Source: Bacillota bacterium (GTDB taxonomy: Bacteria; Bacillota; Dethiobacteria; DTU022). Taken from it: a stretch of DNA of 45,876 bases. A program made the translations under genes and the position numbers. The stretch spans positions 1-45,876 of the forward strand of contig JAHYJM010000010.1 in the NCBI GenBank assembly GCA_019428945.1, written 5' to 3'. The notes below the pieces were generated by a model that was given only the letters and a program-made list of their open reading frames with translations, did no database searches and was not told where the DNA came from. Positions 38,373 to 44,176 of the stretch are shown here, one piece after another. Position 1 is the first letter of the stretch. Every line of letters starts with the position of its first letter.

Positions 38373-39878
38373 TTAATCAGATCCGTTGTTACGTCGGCCT
38401 TTCTGCAGGTGGTAGCGCAGAGCGCGTGGGGTAATGCCGAGCAAATTGGCTGCTTTGACCTGATTACCATAAGTATCATCTACGGCGCTCTCAATAATCC
38501 TGGCTAAAAATTCATCACGCCAGCAGTTTAAGTCTTTGCTAAAATGCTCAAAATCAAAACCCTGTCTGAAATTTATCGTTTCAAAAAGAGTTGCTTCGTA
38601 CTGCCCGAGCAGTTCCTCCAGTTTTGCCCCAATTTCCGGTACGCTTCTAAAAAGCTGTTTTGCTGCTTCTGAATTACGGGCAGTGCCTTCTTCTGAATTT
38701 TTAGTGTCATTTGAGTTTTTTTTAATTCTTTCAGGGAGGTCCTCTACTGTTATCTGAGGACCTTTACTTAGAAGAAGGGCCTGAGCAACTGTGTTTGATA
38801 ATTCCCTGATATTCCCCGGCCAATCGTGTTTCTTGAGCGTATTCAATGCTTCTTTAGAAAATGGTTTAATCTCTATTTGCTTGGCTATTGATTCTTTTTC
38901 AAGGAAGAAGTTTATAAAATTTTCAAGATCATTCGGTCGCTCTCTTAGAGGGGGGATACTCAGGGAAGCAACGTCAAGGCGGTAAAACAGGTCTTCCCTA
39001 AAATTGTTTTCAGCTACTTTCACTGCCAGGTTGGCGTTTGTGGCGGCAATAATACGAACATCAACCTTGCACATTTCTTCACCGCCTACACGAAAAAATT
39101 CACCTGTTTCCAGTACACGAAGCAGTTTGATCTGGATAGCAGGGCTGGCAGAATCAATTTCATCCAGAAATAGTGTTGCCTTATTGGCCTGTTCAAAAAT
39201 ACCTTTCTTTTTGTGGGTAGCCCCGGTAAACGATCCTTTTTCATGTCCGAAAAGTTCACTTTCCAAAAGGGTTTCGGTAAAGGCGCCACAATTAAATGCC
39301 AGGAAAGGGCTATCACTGCGATGGCTGACAGAATGGATATAACGGGCAAGCACTTCTTTGCCTGTACCGGTTTCTCCCTGAATGAGTACAGTGATATTTT
39401 TCTTGGCAATTTTTTGGGCAGCCGCCACCAGGCTAAGCATTTTCTGGCTTCGGCCGACCACAAAGCCAAGTTCCTGCTGAGCTGCAGACATTTTCTCAGT
39501 TTCTGCTTTTACATTAAGTGAGCGTTCCAGTAAAGCTTCCATTTCGTTTATATCAACGAAAGGCTTTTCCACATAATCGAAAGCACCCAGCTGAATAGCC
39601 TCTACGGCCGATTTAACCGTAGAATACCCGGTAATAATAATAACCTCACAGTCTGGCTGGCAGCTTTTAATTTCTTTTAAAATATCAAGTCCGTTGGCAT
39701 CCGGTAACTTCAGGTCTACAAGGGCAGTATCAAATTTATGTTCCTTCAATCTGGCAGAAGCTTCTTCGCCGGAATTAGCTGTTTCAACCCCGTATCCCTT
39801 ATGTTTGAGCAGGTAACTGAAAAAGTTACATACTTCCTGTTCATCATCAACTATTAAAAAAACTGCATCTTTCGACAT
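38373..39878 (-). CDS. Sigma-54-dependent response regulator (NtrC type)
   Basis: The 501-residue protein has a receiver domain (acid pocket Asp11/Asp12, phosphoacceptor Asp55, Thr83, Lys105). The AAA+ domain follows, with Walker A GETGTGKE at 168-175, the sigma-54-contacting loop GSFTGA at 215-220, Walker B LFLDE near 236-240 and FREDLFYRLDV. The C-terminus is a Fis-type helix-turn-helix (QVKAANLLGITPRALRYHL). A roughly 90-residue linker between AAA+ and HTH is longer than usual. It activates sigma-54 promoters once phosphorylated, presumably by the adjacent kinase. A sigma-54 promoter lies 4 kb upstream before the formate channel gene, its most obvious target here. The ATG follows GGAGG. 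Confidence 0.95.
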   Translation of the reverse strand: MSKDAVFLIVDDEQEVCNFFSYLLKHKGYGVETANSGEEASARLKEHKFDTALVDLKLPDANGLDILKEIKSCQPDCEVIIITGYSTVKSAVEAIQLGAFDYVEKPFVDINEMEALLERSLNVKAETEKMSAAQQELGFVVGRSQKMLSLVAAAQKIAKKNITVLIQGETGTGKEVLARYIHSVSHRSDSPFLAFNCGAFTETLLESELFGHEKGSFTGATHKKKGIFEQANKATLFLDEIDSASPAIQIKLLRVLETGEFFRVGGEEMCKVDVRIIAATNANLAVKVAENNFREDLFYRLDVASLSIPPLRERPNDLENFINFFLEKESIAKQIEIKPFSKEALNTLKKHDWPGNIRELSNTVAQALLLSKGPQITVEDLPERIKKNSNDTKNSEEGTARNSEAAKQLFRSVPEIGAKLEELLGQYEATLFETINFRQGFDFEHFSKDLNCWRDEFLARIIESAVDDTYGNQVKAANLLGITPRALRYHLQKGRRNNGSD

Positions 39879-39947: not shown

Positions 39948-41132
39948 CTACTTATTGTAATCATCATCATCCTGATTATTTTTATACAGGGGAAGGATAA
40001 GGCTGAAAGTGCTTCCGCTGCCTGCTTTAGTTTCCAAATCAATAAAACCTCCGTGCGCCTGGGCTATACCTAAACTCACTGAAAGACCTAAACCAGTTCC
40101 TTTCCCACTCTTCTTGGTTGTGTAGAATGGATTGAATATCTGGGGGATATGTTCTTCTTCTATACCGCTGCCGTTGTCTGTTATGTCGACAATAACGAGC
40201 TTGCCATCAGGATGGATTCGCGTTGCTAATTTAATTTCTCCCCTCGCGCCGTTTACTTGATCACACAGCATGCTTTCAACGGCATCCTTGGCATTAAGCA
40301 GCAGGTTTACAATGATCTGTTCCAGACTGCTGGCACTGCCTGATAAGATTGGAATCCCGGCTGTTTTATTAACTGTCAGAGTTATTTTGCTTTTTTCTAT
40401 CTGGTAAGTTACCAGGGCCAGGGCGCTGTCAATCACTTCATTTATATTTACATCGTCAAAAGTGAATTCATCCTGGCGTGAGAATGTAAGCAGGTTTTTA
40501 ATGATTTTCTGACATCGAAGTCCGCTGCTGTGGATATCTTTTATCAATTGATATTGGGGATCTTTCGGATTTGTCTCACGAAGCAGTAGCTGGGAATTAC
40601 CCACTATAGCGGTTAGAGGGCTATTTAATTCGTGAGCTACTCCCGCAGACATCTCCCCCATGGATACCAGTTTGATTGAATCAACAAAACTGGTTACATC
40701 CTTGGCGTAGTAAGTGACACCATAAGGTTCCTGCATTTCTGTAAAAGCCGGATAAACAAATATATCAAGAACCCTGTTGTAACGGGTCCGTGACTGCAGG
40801 TATGAAGTTTTTTGTGACTGTAGAACCTGGTCACCAATACAGGGGTTGCACTTTTTTTCGCGTCCGTAAAAAAGCTGGTAACATTTAGCTCCGATAATTT
40901 CATCTTCCCGCATGGTAAGGAAGTCTACCGCAGCCTGGTTAACTCTCTGTATTTCATAATCCTGGTTAATAAAAACCAGAAGATCTGTCACTGCTGAAAA
41001 TGTAACCTCCCAGTCTCTTTTAATTTCTAAAAGTTCATTGATTTTCTTTTTCAGGGCCACGTAATATGATCTTTTTGAGCTATGTACTCCGGTAAGCTTT
41101 TCAATTAATCTTTTCTTGTTCTGCATTACCAT
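39948..41132 (-). CDS. Soluble PAS histidine kinase with cysteine-bearing sensor
   Basis: This 394-residue kinase lacks membrane helices. A PAS domain at about 40-150 contains CX10CX2C (Cys84, Cys95, Cys98; segment GAKCYQLFYGREKKCNPC), suitable for a metal, an iron-sulfur cluster or thiol redox sensing. The HisKA domain has the phosphoacceptor His167 in GVAHELNSPLTAI. The ATPase domain shows NLLLNAKDAVE (N box), DNGSGI (G1), FYTTKKSGKGTGLGLSV (F/G2). The start overlaps the alcohol dehydrogenase stop (TAATG), so the two are co-translated, and the response regulator follows 69 bp later. A cytoplasmic signal, perhaps redox or aldehyde related, is inferred. Confidence 0.93.
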   Translation of the reverse strand: MVMQNKKRLIEKLTGVHSSKRSYYVALKKKINELLEIKRDWEVTFSAVTDLLVFINQDYEIQRVNQAAVDFLTMREDEIIGAKCYQLFYGREKKCNPCIGDQVLQSQKTSYLQSRTRYNRVLDIFVYPAFTEMQEPYGVTYYAKDVTSFVDSIKLVSMGEMSAGVAHELNSPLTAIVGNSQLLLRETNPKDPQYQLIKDIHSSGLRCQKIIKNLLTFSRQDEFTFDDVNINEVIDSALALVTYQIEKSKITLTVNKTAGIPILSGSASSLEQIIVNLLLNAKDAVESMLCDQVNGARGEIKLATRIHPDGKLVIVDITDNGSGIEEEHIPQIFNPFYTTKKSGKGTGLGLSVSLGIAQAHGGFIDLETKAGSGSTFSLILPLYKNNQDDDDYNK

Positions 41133-42301
41133 TATGATCCACCTCCAGGCATTTCAAGGGCGGCCCGGAAAATATTAATGATATCTTTTTCATCGGCATC
41201 TCGCGGGTTTGTTATGAAACAGGCATCATTTTTGGTGTTTCTGCTAAGTTCTGGTATTGAGCTTTCAGGTAGCCCCAGTTCAGCAAGACCGGATGGGATC
41301 CCTACATCTTTTGCCAGCTCCTGGACCAATCCGATTGCTTTTTCTGCAGCCTCACGTTTCGAAAGGTGCCTGATCTGTGCGCCCATCGCTGCAGCAATTT
41401 CTGCATACTTATCAACACAGGCTATCAGGTTATAGCGCATAACATAAGGCAGCAGCACAGCGCTAATCGTGCCTATAGGCAGATCAAGCAGTCCGCCAAC
41501 CTGGTGAGTCATAGCCTGGCCCAGTCCCAGTACTGCATTTGAGAAAGCAATGCCGGCATGAAGGCTGGCTTTTGCCATGGCAATCTTGGCAGTTTCATCA
41601 ACCTGGCTTGCTACTGAAGATCTAAGGTTTTCAGAGATGAGTTTAATGGCATGAAGAGCATGAATATCTGTCATATCGGTAGATGCCAGGGAGAGGTAAG
41701 CTTCAATTGCGTGGCTTAAAGCTTCCATGCCGGTGTGTGCAGTGACATTACCGCTTATTGTTGAAAGAATAATTGGATCAGAAACGGCGATGTCAGGGAC
41801 CAGTGATTTTGAAATAATTGTCATTTTAATTTTACGGTCACTGTCGGAGATGATGGCGAACTGGGAAACCTCGGAGCCTGAACCTGCAGTTGAAGGGACG
41901 ACAATCAAAGGAGGTAGTGGCTCGGTAATCATATCGATACCTTCGTAATTGTGAATTCGACCTTTATTGGTTGATAAAGTGGCTACAGCTTTAGCGGCAT
42001 CAACGGCGCTGCCTCCTCCTATTGCCAGAACGGCATCGCAGTTAGAGTTTCTGTATAAGCTTAAACCTTCTTCAACTTCATAATCGCGTGGGTTAGCCGA
42101 AAATTCTGACCAGATCTGGTAATCCAGTTTAGCCTTATCCAGGAATATAACTGCCTTGTCTGCCCAGCCGCAATTTACTATACCCCTGTCGGCTACCAGA
42201 AATACCCTGGAAGAACCGAGCCTGCTGCAGCATTCACCGACCTGGTTTAGCGAACCGGTGCCGAAAATGATCTCCGGGGTCACAAATTTACTGATGTACA
42301 T
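41132..42301 (-). CDS. Iron-containing alcohol dehydrogenase, ErcA-like
   Basis: The 389 residues belong to the iron-containing (group III) alcohol dehydrogenases. The NAD motif is AIGGGSAVDAAKAVA. Metal ligands are the Asp in VPDIAVSDP and the His residues in HTGMEALSHAIEAY and MTHQVGGLLDLP. PSTAGSGSEVSQFAIISDSD, with VSQFAI, resembles the ErcA subgroup. In Pseudomonas ErcA is encoded beside ErcS-type kinases and takes part in control of ethanol oxidation. Here a PAS kinase gene follows directly, which supports that reading. The ATG at 42301 is preceded by AAAGGACGG; an upstream TTG at 42322 overlaps that site. Substrate unknown. Confidence 0.88.
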   Translation of the reverse strand: MYISKFVTPEIIFGTGSLNQVGECCSRLGSSRVFLVADRGIVNCGWADKAVIFLDKAKLDYQIWSEFSANPRDYEVEEGLSLYRNSNCDAVLAIGGGSAVDAAKAVATLSTNKGRIHNYEGIDMITEPLPPLIVVPSTAGSGSEVSQFAIISDSDRKIKMTIISKSLVPDIAVSDPIILSTISGNVTAHTGMEALSHAIEAYLSLASTDMTDIHALHAIKLISENLRSSVASQVDETAKIAMAKASLHAGIAFSNAVLGLGQAMTHQVGGLLDLPIGTISAVLLPYVMRYNLIACVDKYAEIAAAMGAQIRHLSKREAAEKAIGLVQELAKDVGIPSGLAELGLPESSIPELSRNTKNDACFITNPRDADEKDIINIFRAALEMPGGGS

Positions 42302-42416
42302 TTTTATGACCGTCCTTTGCAAATCAAATCTTTTACATACTTTCTATTTCTGTAATAGATGTAAAAATCCTTTAAAAATACATAGTAATAATGTTTCATT
42401 ATAACCGGCAGCAAAG

Positions 42417-42442
42417 ACGCCCCGGTTTGTTTTACGGGGCGT
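42417..42442 (-). terminator. Hairpin between the Cys4 gene and the alcohol dehydrogenase gene
   Basis: ACGCCCCG at 42417-42424 pairs with CGGGGCGT at 42435-42442. The T-run on the minus strand is weak (CTTTG). It probably ends most transcripts from the formate channel operon, with a TATAAT-like box for the next operon just beyond it (42398-42403, minus strand). Confidence 0.65.
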
Positions 42443-42479: not shown

Positions 42480-42731
42480 TTATCTTCGGGTTACAAGTGG
42501 TTCCAATCCTTTTTGTTTTTCTTCCACCAACGCTTCTTCATATATATCAGGCACAAGGCCGAACCCTACATTGCTTTCCATCAGTTTTTTGCATTTCTGC
42601 CGTTGAAGTTCAGTACAACCGCAGCTTCTGGCTTCCACAACGGTTAACCTGCGACCGTAGGCGCCGGCGCTGCAGAAGGTAATCCAGCCGTTCATGCTTT
42701 GATATTCTTTCCAGTTCTTACACTGTACCAT
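42480..42731 (-). CDS. Small four-cysteine protein, paralogue of the formate channel N-terminal module
   Basis: The 83-residue product aligns without gaps over about 58 residues with the N-terminal module of the channel encoded just upstream. Both share CX2WXEYXSXXGXI, then Cys, GCT, RX2C, and an ending VGXGLVP. The four conserved cysteines (Cys4, 20, 39, 47; spacing CX15CX18CX7C) suggest metal or iron-sulfur binding. An extra Cys37 is unique to this copy. It has no signal or membrane segment. ATG 42731 is chosen because AGAAAGGTGG lies just upstream; a GTG at 42749 abuts an earlier AAAGGA. It begins 51 bp after the channel stop, so it is co-transcribed. I do not recognise the module's family. 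Confidence 0.8.
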   Translation of the reverse strand: MVQCKNWKEYQSMNGWITFCSAGAYGRRLTVVEARSCGCTELQRQKCKKLMESNVGFGLVPDIYEEALVEEKQKGLEPLVTRR

Positions 42732-42782
42732 TTTTTCCACCTTTCTCACTCCTTTAAGAAAATCTCTTACATCTCTGCCCGC

Positions 42783-43874
42783 CTATTGATGAGGATTGAG
42801 GTCAATAATAACTTTTTTTGGTGTTGTTGGTCTCAGGTAGCATGTCCAGTAAGCAAATGCAACAAAAACCACACCTCCGACAATGTTACCCAGGGTTACC
42901 GGTATCAGGTTGTTAATAAAGAATGTCTGCCAGGTTATGCCCTGCAAGACCGCAGGTGCTATAAGTCCCTGGGCCAGTTCGCTCCCTTTGACTATGATGC
43001 CCATTGGCACAAAATACATGTTGGCGATAGAGTGTTCAAAACCGGCAGCAACAAAAGCTGAAATCGGAATCATAATCCCAAGGATTTTGCTGATAGCATC
43101 TTTACCGGCCATGGCAATCCAGACGGCAAGACAGACGAGCCAGTTACAGAGGATGCCCCTGAAAAAGGCTTCACTCCAGGTCAGACTTGTTTTAGCTGCG
43201 GCAATGTTGATGACTCTTACCATAACTCCCCCGTCATTTGCTTTCCAGATACCAGAGTAATAGAAGAGAAAAACAACCAGCAGCGCTCCAACAAAGTTAA
43301 ACAGGTAGACCCAGAACCAGTTGTTTAAAACCTGCTTTCCGGTAACTTTTCGATCGAGATAACCGGCTGCAAGCAGGTTATTGCCGGTAAAAAGTTCTGC
43401 TCCACCGAGGATGACAAGGATCAGCCCAAGTGAGAAAGAGATTCCTCCAACCAGGCGGCTGAGCCCGTCACCGATGTAAAGGGCAAGATCGTTGGTGACA
43501 ATAGTAAACAGAACTGCTCCCAGTGCAATATAGGCGCCGGCAAGAATTGCCAGCATAATTAATGATGGTGCTGCAGTGGCCGCTTTTTTCTGAGCGACGC
43601 CGACTAGTGTCTTGGCAATTTCCGGGGGCGGATCGCAAGACAATACCGGCGCTGATACAGGGGCGGCTACAGGTGCGGGCAGCTCTTCGGGTACAAGTCC
43701 TTTACCTACGGCATACTCCATTGATTTCATGCACTCCACCCTTTTTTCGCCAGTGCAGCCGATGGCCTGCAGAAAATTGGGGTTAACCGGCCTGTTAAAC
43801 GCAGCCAGTTCGCAGTAGCAGATATGTCCTGCGACAGAGTCGTACTCATTCCAGAATGCACATTTCTCAGCCAT
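42783..43874 (-). CDS. Formate/nitrite channel (FNT family) with N-terminal four-cysteine module
   Basis: Residues from about 100 onward form a FocA/NirC-type channel: six hydrophobic segments, LGGAELFTGNNLLAAG at the omega-loop position, and the central His281 in GFEHSIANMYFVP, equivalent to the pore His of FocA. It would pass formate, nitrite or a similar small anion. The first 62 residues are an extra cytoplasmic module with CX15CX18CX7C (Cys5, 21, 40, 48), joined by a Pro/Ala-rich linker. Most FNT proteins are about 260-280 residues and lack it. The ATG follows AAAGGAGG. A sigma-54 promoter lies 68 bases upstream. Substrate unproven, formate most likely given the anaerobic setting. Confidence 0.9.
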   Translation of the reverse strand: MAEKCAFWNEYDSVAGHICYCELAAFNRPVNPNFLQAIGCTGEKRVECMKSMEYAVGKGLVPEELPAPVAAPVSAPVLSCDPPPEIAKTLVGVAQKKAATAAPSLIMLAILAGAYIALGAVLFTIVTNDLALYIGDGLSRLVGGISFSLGLILVILGGAELFTGNNLLAAGYLDRKVTGKQVLNNWFWVYLFNFVGALLVVFLFYYSGIWKANDGGVMVRVINIAAAKTSLTWSEAFFRGILCNWLVCLAVWIAMAGKDAISKILGIMIPISAFVAAGFEHSIANMYFVPMGIIVKGSELAQGLIAPAVLQGITWQTFFINNLIPVTLGNIVGGVVFVAFAYWTCYLRPTTPKKVIIDLNPHQ

Positions 43875-43941
43875 TGGTATTGCCTCCTTTCTTTTTTTGC
43901 TTCAGGATTTGTCAAAAATTATCTAGCTGTAACTATATATA

Positions 43942-43956
43942 GCAATACCTGTGCCA
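43942..43956 (-). promoter_or_regulatory. Sigma-54 (-24/-12) promoter of the formate channel operon
   Basis: On the minus strand the sequence is TGGCAC-AGGTA-TTGC, a perfect match to the sigma-54 consensus with the required 5-bp spacing, followed by T. The start point would lie about 55 bases before the channel ATG. Such promoters need an AAA+ activator; one is encoded 4 kb downstream on the same strand. Confidence 0.85.
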
Positions 43957-44088
43957 ACTTTGTTATTTTGATGCCAATATATTAGTTATATTGATTGGAA
44001 CCACGAGTTTATGTTGCAGCAGCAATTAAAAACGATTTTAATTCCGTGCAGGAAAAGCACTTGATAGGCATGGCACATTCTACATGTG

Positions 44089-44100
44089 ACGCAATTGCGT
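44089..44100. promoter_or_regulatory. 12-bp perfect palindrome, possible activator site
   Basis: ACGCAATTGCGT is fully self-complementary and sits about 135 bp upstream of the sigma-54 promoter, the usual distance for an enhancer-type activator site. It also lies between the divergent channel operon and mfd. Two ACATGT hexamers flank it (44082 and 44118 areas). No other gene is visible in 43875-44261. Confidence 0.4.
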
Positions 44101-44176
44101 TATCTTATTAACCTTAACATGTAACTCATGCGCAAATAATGGGTTCTTTTCCTGCCGGGGATTATCTATCCTGTGT

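Follow-up and report, generated by a model that had tools for sequence, protein, structure and literature searches.

What does a four-cysteine module do at the N-terminus of an FNT channel, and why does the next gene encode the same module again as a small, separate protein? The arrangement lies in a 45,876-nt stretch of Bacillota DNA, analysed as a whole and referred to here as the window (Table 1). BLASTP aligned channel residues 1–63 with the free protein without a gap, 24 of 60 positions being identical and 34 similar (E 6e-14), which bore out the match reported in the initial annotation. The CX15CX18CX7C spacing described there was exact in both proteins, with the cysteines at C5, C21, C40 and C48 of the channel and at C4, C20, C39 and C47 of the free protein in its 83-aa reading.

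Table 1 Features of the module-FNT locus in the window.
Feature	Position	Strand	Basis or remark
Module-FNT channel gene	42783-43874	-	363 aa
Four-cysteine module, channel residues 1-63	43686..43874	-	Alignment; no Pfam/NCBIfam family
Pro/Ala-rich linker, residues 64-82, length varies	43629..43685	-	Alignment; unstructured, low confidence in model
FNT (FocA-like) channel domain	42846..43622	-	PF01226 E 1.8e-81; alignment to FocA 3kcu
Free module protein	42480..42740	-	Probable GTG start 42740, 86 aa; 42 nt behind channel stop
Iron-containing alcohol dehydrogenase (Fe-ADH)	41132..42295	-	PF00465; kept in cassette
PAS histidine kinase	39948..41132	-	HisKA, HATPase_c; kept in cassette
NtrC-type sigma-54 response regulator	38373..39878	-	Response_reg, Sigma54_activat, HTH_8; kept in cassette
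Sigma-54 promoter TGGCACAGGTATTGCT	43941..43956	-	82 bp before channel start codon; window's only exact match
Palindrome TAACGCAATTGCGTCAC	44086..44102	-	The genome's single site; in relatives, lies at module genes

The same spacing recurred in all 75 distinct module copies compared, one of which, cut by a contig end, was without the last cysteine only. Homologues without conserved cysteines, which the initial annotation had named as grounds for abandoning the idea, did not appear among these 75 copies. Two glycines and one alanine were also invariant; a proline was kept in 72 copies, the tryptophan in 62 and the tyrosine in 67. Of the motif first put forward, the four cysteines held throughout, whereas the tryptophan, the tyrosine and the VGxGLVP end proved looser. 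Both the fused and the free copies were under purifying selection (pN 0.09–0.21 versus pS 0.51–0.91). A third match in the organism's own genome (C136:6990-7079), antisense to polA and containing a stop, was set aside as chance. Second module-FNT copies occurred at L008:2057-3130, L102:2004-3062 and L092:143-1210; they kept the four cysteines, had lost the tryptophan and the C-terminal part of the module, and had no sigma-54 promoter of their own.

The free protein probably starts at GTG 42740 rather than at ATG 42731 (86 instead of 83 aa), because AAAGGAG stands 8 nt before the GTG and relatives begin with M-E-K or M-K-K at this place. As initially proposed, its gene shares the operon of the channel; it follows the channel stop codon after 42 nt and keeps this place in the cassette relatives. 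A strong hairpin with a weak T tail (ACGCCCCG...CGGGGCGT, window positions 42413-42442) separates the free module gene from the Fe-ADH gene and is a possible attenuator or terminator, though no intrinsic terminator behind the free module gene passed the scan.

On the channel side, the Pfam FNT family covered the channel part only (PF01226, residues 85-343, 273.5 bits against a curated cut-off of 34.6). The pore residues T163 and H281 align with T91 and H209 of FocA (3kcu) and were invariant in the 32 fused channels. Scored against the FocA equivalog model TIGR04060, the protein reached 252.9 bits, under the cut-off of 290.1, and was filed as a FocA-like FNT channel only; from this likeness to FocA, formate would be the expected substrate.

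The initial annotation had also allowed for the module being a known, named domain, and no Pfam, NCBIfam or PDB family that we searched, nor the 2017 FNT survey (PMC5525234), describes it. Neither the free window protein nor the module within the channel matched a Pfam or NCBIfam family. Comparison of 69 module members with Pfam gave scattered weak matches, most commonly DUF2769 (four members, E 0.049); this family, HycA_repressor and the other weak matches were set aside, all being found in single or few members at E 0.0024 or worse. The best E value was 1.3 for a PDB sequence search with the module and 0.86 for a PDB fold search with its model, and a search of viral folds returned nothing significant. 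N-terminal segments of FNT channels average 25–55 residues in the 2017 survey, and a search of the survey's text returned no mention of fused or additional domains (PMC5525234). Searches of further open-access papers likewise gave no description of the module. Neither the module, be it attached to the channel, free or HTH-fused, nor its regulon appears to have been described before, the channel itself being of a known kind.

The fold predicted for the free module from 69 sequences had a core pLDDT above 90 and comprised a beta-hairpin (7-12/15-20) and helices at 31-36 and 41-55. In this model C4 and C20 lie on either side of the hairpin's open end, and C39 and C47 stand at the start of the last helix; the four cysteines could meet in such a fold. 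The model of the whole channel contained the same module elements at lower confidence, a disordered linker and a channel core above 90.

Beyond the channel and the free module gene, the locus forms a cassette in the order module-FNT, free module, ErcA-like Fe-ADH, PAS kinase and sigma-54 response regulator. The full order was present in the window and at L005, L006, L009, L010, L122-L127 and L129, where the free modules of L010 and L124 were identified despite the gene caller's preference for an overlapping frame. At L008 a second module-FNT gene stood between the free module and Fe-ADH genes, and the cassettes of L007 and L128 were cut by contig ends. In several relatives the flanking genes were shared as well: pth borders the cassette at one end and a long gene of ~1,190 codons, the same in each, at the other. 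The entire cassette at L010 (contig JAIMBG010000021.1) lies in a metagenome-assembled genome named Acetobacteraceae and carries the most divergent module pair; this contig was probably mis-binned or transferred.

The response regulator has the receiver, AAA+ sigma-54 interaction domain and Fis-type HTH that define the NtrC type, and the same regulator was also found beside the double-module gene in L117. The closest NCBIfam model of the Fe-ADH was ErcA (NF041833; 453.2 bits, under the cut-off of 550), and its gene shares one base with that of the kinase, an overlap that would fit membership in a sensing unit. The Pseudomonas ErcA/ErcS system of ethanol regulation likewise has the gene of a regulatory Fe-ADH adjoining that of a sensor kinase (PMC12997753). 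Unlike that system, the window's regulator is of the sigma-54-dependent kind, its target would be a formate channel together with module genes, and the Fe-ADH score stays below the ErcA cut-off.

The DNA upstream of the module genes pointed to a common mode of control. An exact match to the sigma-54 consensus TGGCAY-N5-TTGCW (−24/−12, GG-N10-GC) preceded 26 of the 28 testable first module-FNT genes and, with one mismatch, the other two; the site lay between −50 and −90 in all but L010. Shuffled upstream DNA contained the consensus in 0.005 of 27. Upstream of the promoter, the palindrome TGACGYANNTRCGTCA was present with at most two mismatches at 16 of 22 loci and with at most three at 21 of 22, compared to 0.05 and 0.6, respectively, in shuffles. 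When the 60 genomes of relatives were scanned at no more than one mismatch, the palindrome occurred in 17 module-bearing genomes, always upstream of a module gene and about 150–260 bp from it (about 290 bp in G021:C16). Two further matches, in G025 and G052, were rejected as chance: they fall within or next to unrelated genes, and no sigma-54 promoter accompanies them. The reversed pattern, used as a control in the same scan, matched at 10 scattered places on a single strand and nowhere on both. Its linkage and position make TAACGCAATTGCGTCAC the probable upstream site from which the sigma-54 response regulator would activate transcription.

Promoter and palindrome also occurred together before the four orphan free module genes tested in the family and before the double-module gene, and the palindrome-bearing free genes included ones far from any channel. 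From this recurrence away from the channel, the module emerged as what the members of a dedicated sigma-54 regulon share. The module-FNT genes of family f34 had the promoter (5 of 5) and no clear palindrome. Neither element was found at the XRE locus L153, at the f10 copies or at the module-less channels, and a sigma-54 promoter was sought in L154-L156 without success. Sigma-54 control of formate genes is familiar from the formate regulon of E. coli. The regulator there is FhlA (PMC11841067); in the window an NtrC-type regulator of a two-component system takes its place, the palindrome differs and the targets would be module genes.

A profile built from 14 modules, the kind of search that the initial annotation had proposed, was run on 60 relatives and on 398 sampled genomes of the phylum, most of the sequences compared coming from metagenome-assembled genomes. 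It recovered the module in 26 of the relatives and 18 of the phylum genomes. When the channel was used to scan bacterial and archaeal genomes, the six channels closest to it all carried the module and were each followed by a free copy; the free protein alone as query returned no relative from the genome collection, and the module was absent from the viral contigs and plasmids searched. The other loci listed in the channel scan had ordinary FNT N-termini or, in eight cases, a receiver-like domain. These eight channels (L029, L032, L033, L036, L042, L043, L044 and L064; frames of about 425–436 aa), mostly in Desulfobacterota-type metagenome-assembled genomes, are unmentioned in the FNT survey (PMC5525234). 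They resemble the module channels in carrying a signalling domain on the FNT N-terminus and differ in that a phospho-receiver-like domain replaces the Cys4 module, with no free copies noted. No module was found in 198 sampled genomes of the phylum of L029 in a scan run without a positive control.

Among the relatives, 24 of the 27 having an FNT gene contained the module. Two of the remaining three, G041 and G047, had plain channels beside formate dehydrogenase genes. In the third, G036 (L176:1129-2157), the module has decayed to MANRCRFW, with no cassette, sigma-54 promoter or palindrome around the gene. Since the G036 channel still looks intact, the module is not essential to a channel. Formate dehydrogenase was encoded by 59 of the 60 relatives, so its co-occurrence with the module discriminates nothing.

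Six architectures were distinguished. The module-FNT gene was accompanied by a free module gene (the first), or stood in a genome with no second module (family f34; L130-L135, L159-L162). Free genes occurred as orphans (L116, L118, L119, L120), and L117 encoded a tandem, double-module protein of 169 aa. In the fifth arrangement (L153-L156) an XRE-type HTH and the module shared one frame, preceded by a free module gene and followed by formate dehydrogenase; the sixth comprised free copies outside any formate dehydrogenase or XRE context (f10; L157, L158). The XRE-HTH fusion of L136/L165 was a single 162-aa frame (HTH_3 at 30-82, module at 98-162), and the proteins of this kind belong to other Bacillota families. 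Directly after the HTH-module gene of L154 came a gene passing the Fdh-alpha model (672 bits against a cut-off of 666.25), and the formate dehydrogenase surroundings of L153-L156 included Fe-S and flavin subunits. Most module copies found do not adjoin dehydrogenase genes. A tree built on the short module alignment, with many unresolved forks, largely separated the fused copies from the free, orphan and XRE ones; the L010 pair, which is divergent, and half of the tandem protein were the exceptions. This split indicated that the duplication is old.

N-termini of FNT channels are cytoplasmic. In E. coli, FocA is gated through its N-terminus by PflB (PMC11841067), and the window channel, of the same family and with the FocA pore residues kept, carries the module at that very place. 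The N-terminal helix of FocA is short and its partner, a glycyl-radical enzyme, is a separate protein, whereas the window channel has a fused 60-residue Cys4 domain and a paralogous free protein. A Cys4 domain located where FocA is gated, and also attached to an HTH beside formate dehydrogenase, led us to propose a control domain for formate. That the module is a cytoplasmic Cys4 sensory or control domain setting formate flux and, in relatives, formate dehydrogenase transcription is a proposal to which we give an even chance. Against it count the f34 channels, which manage with no free copy, the intact-looking G036 channel and the missing sigma-54 promoter at the XRE and free copies that adjoin formate dehydrogenase.

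In the proposed mechanism, the four cysteines, invariant and placed in the cytoplasm of anaerobes, would most likely be the ligands of a metal centre, an iron-sulfur cluster being the probable kind; the state of this centre (redox, bound ligand or partner) would set formate flow through the channel. Through the XRE fusion the same signal would reach the transcription of formate dehydrogenase, and the module genes would be activated together by the cassette kinase and sigma-54 regulator. The free and double copies would be soluble versions under the same control and may serve the kinase, the Fe-ADH or formate dehydrogenase as a partner, a competitor or a carrier of the signal. Sharing of one module between a channel and an HTH protein is typical of a sensory domain. 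Iron-sulfur regulators of the FNR, WhiB and Rrf2 types couple a few conserved cysteines to DNA binding; the module differs from them in its cysteine spacing and its XRE-type HTH, and the searches gave no match in sequence or fold.

The free copy had initially been seen as something that might exchange with, gate or report on the channel. The idea that it is simply the partner of the channel did not hold: f34 fused channels have no free copy, free and double copies distant from channels carry the same palindrome and promoter, and the module is fused to XRE proteins. Expressed with the channel or alone under apparently the same regulator, the free copies probably have a job beyond the channel.

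The strongest competitor, which we regard as unlikely but would take seriously, is a docking or adaptor domain holding structural zinc, tethering the channel to a soluble partner such as formate dehydrogenase or the Fe-ADH, with the free copies as adaptors and no sensing involved. Small Cys4 folds are often structural, PflB docks at the FocA N-terminus, the flexible linker suits tethering and free copies sit in the channel's operon; fusion to a DNA-binding domain, and lone free or double copies under apparently the same regulator, are more readily explained by a signal domain than by a tether. An electron carrier, or a store of clusters or metal for formate dehydrogenase, merely carried on the channel, is improbable: invariant cysteines and the adjoining dehydrogenase with Fe-S and flavin subunits in L153-L156 are consistent with it, but it would have no clear use in the channel or the HTH fusion, the module matched no ferredoxin-like family, and most copies found lie away from dehydrogenase genes. 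Just as improbable are metal-free redox thiols that form reversible disulfides and sense disulfide stress or bind an aldehyde or formate-derived ligand, as the strict order of cytoplasmic cysteines and the Fe-ADH neighbour might suggest, because four equally invariant cysteines, with no full-length copy retaining only a pair, favour a four-ligand site.

A more specific form of the control-domain reading, in which a new family of cysteine-centre sensors gates the channel by redox and controls formate dehydrogenase through the HTH while free copies, placed under a two-component sigma-54 regulon of their own, carry or buffer the signal, is put forward only tentatively, as somewhat less probable than not. 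Formate is a main electron carrier between syntrophic anaerobes. The gating of FNT channels is an open question, and in FocA it depends on a separate enzyme. Where the control domain is built into the channel and can also be expressed separately, gating would become directly testable with a small soluble protein, and the regulon of module genes would open a second route, independent of the first, to the signal that the module senses.
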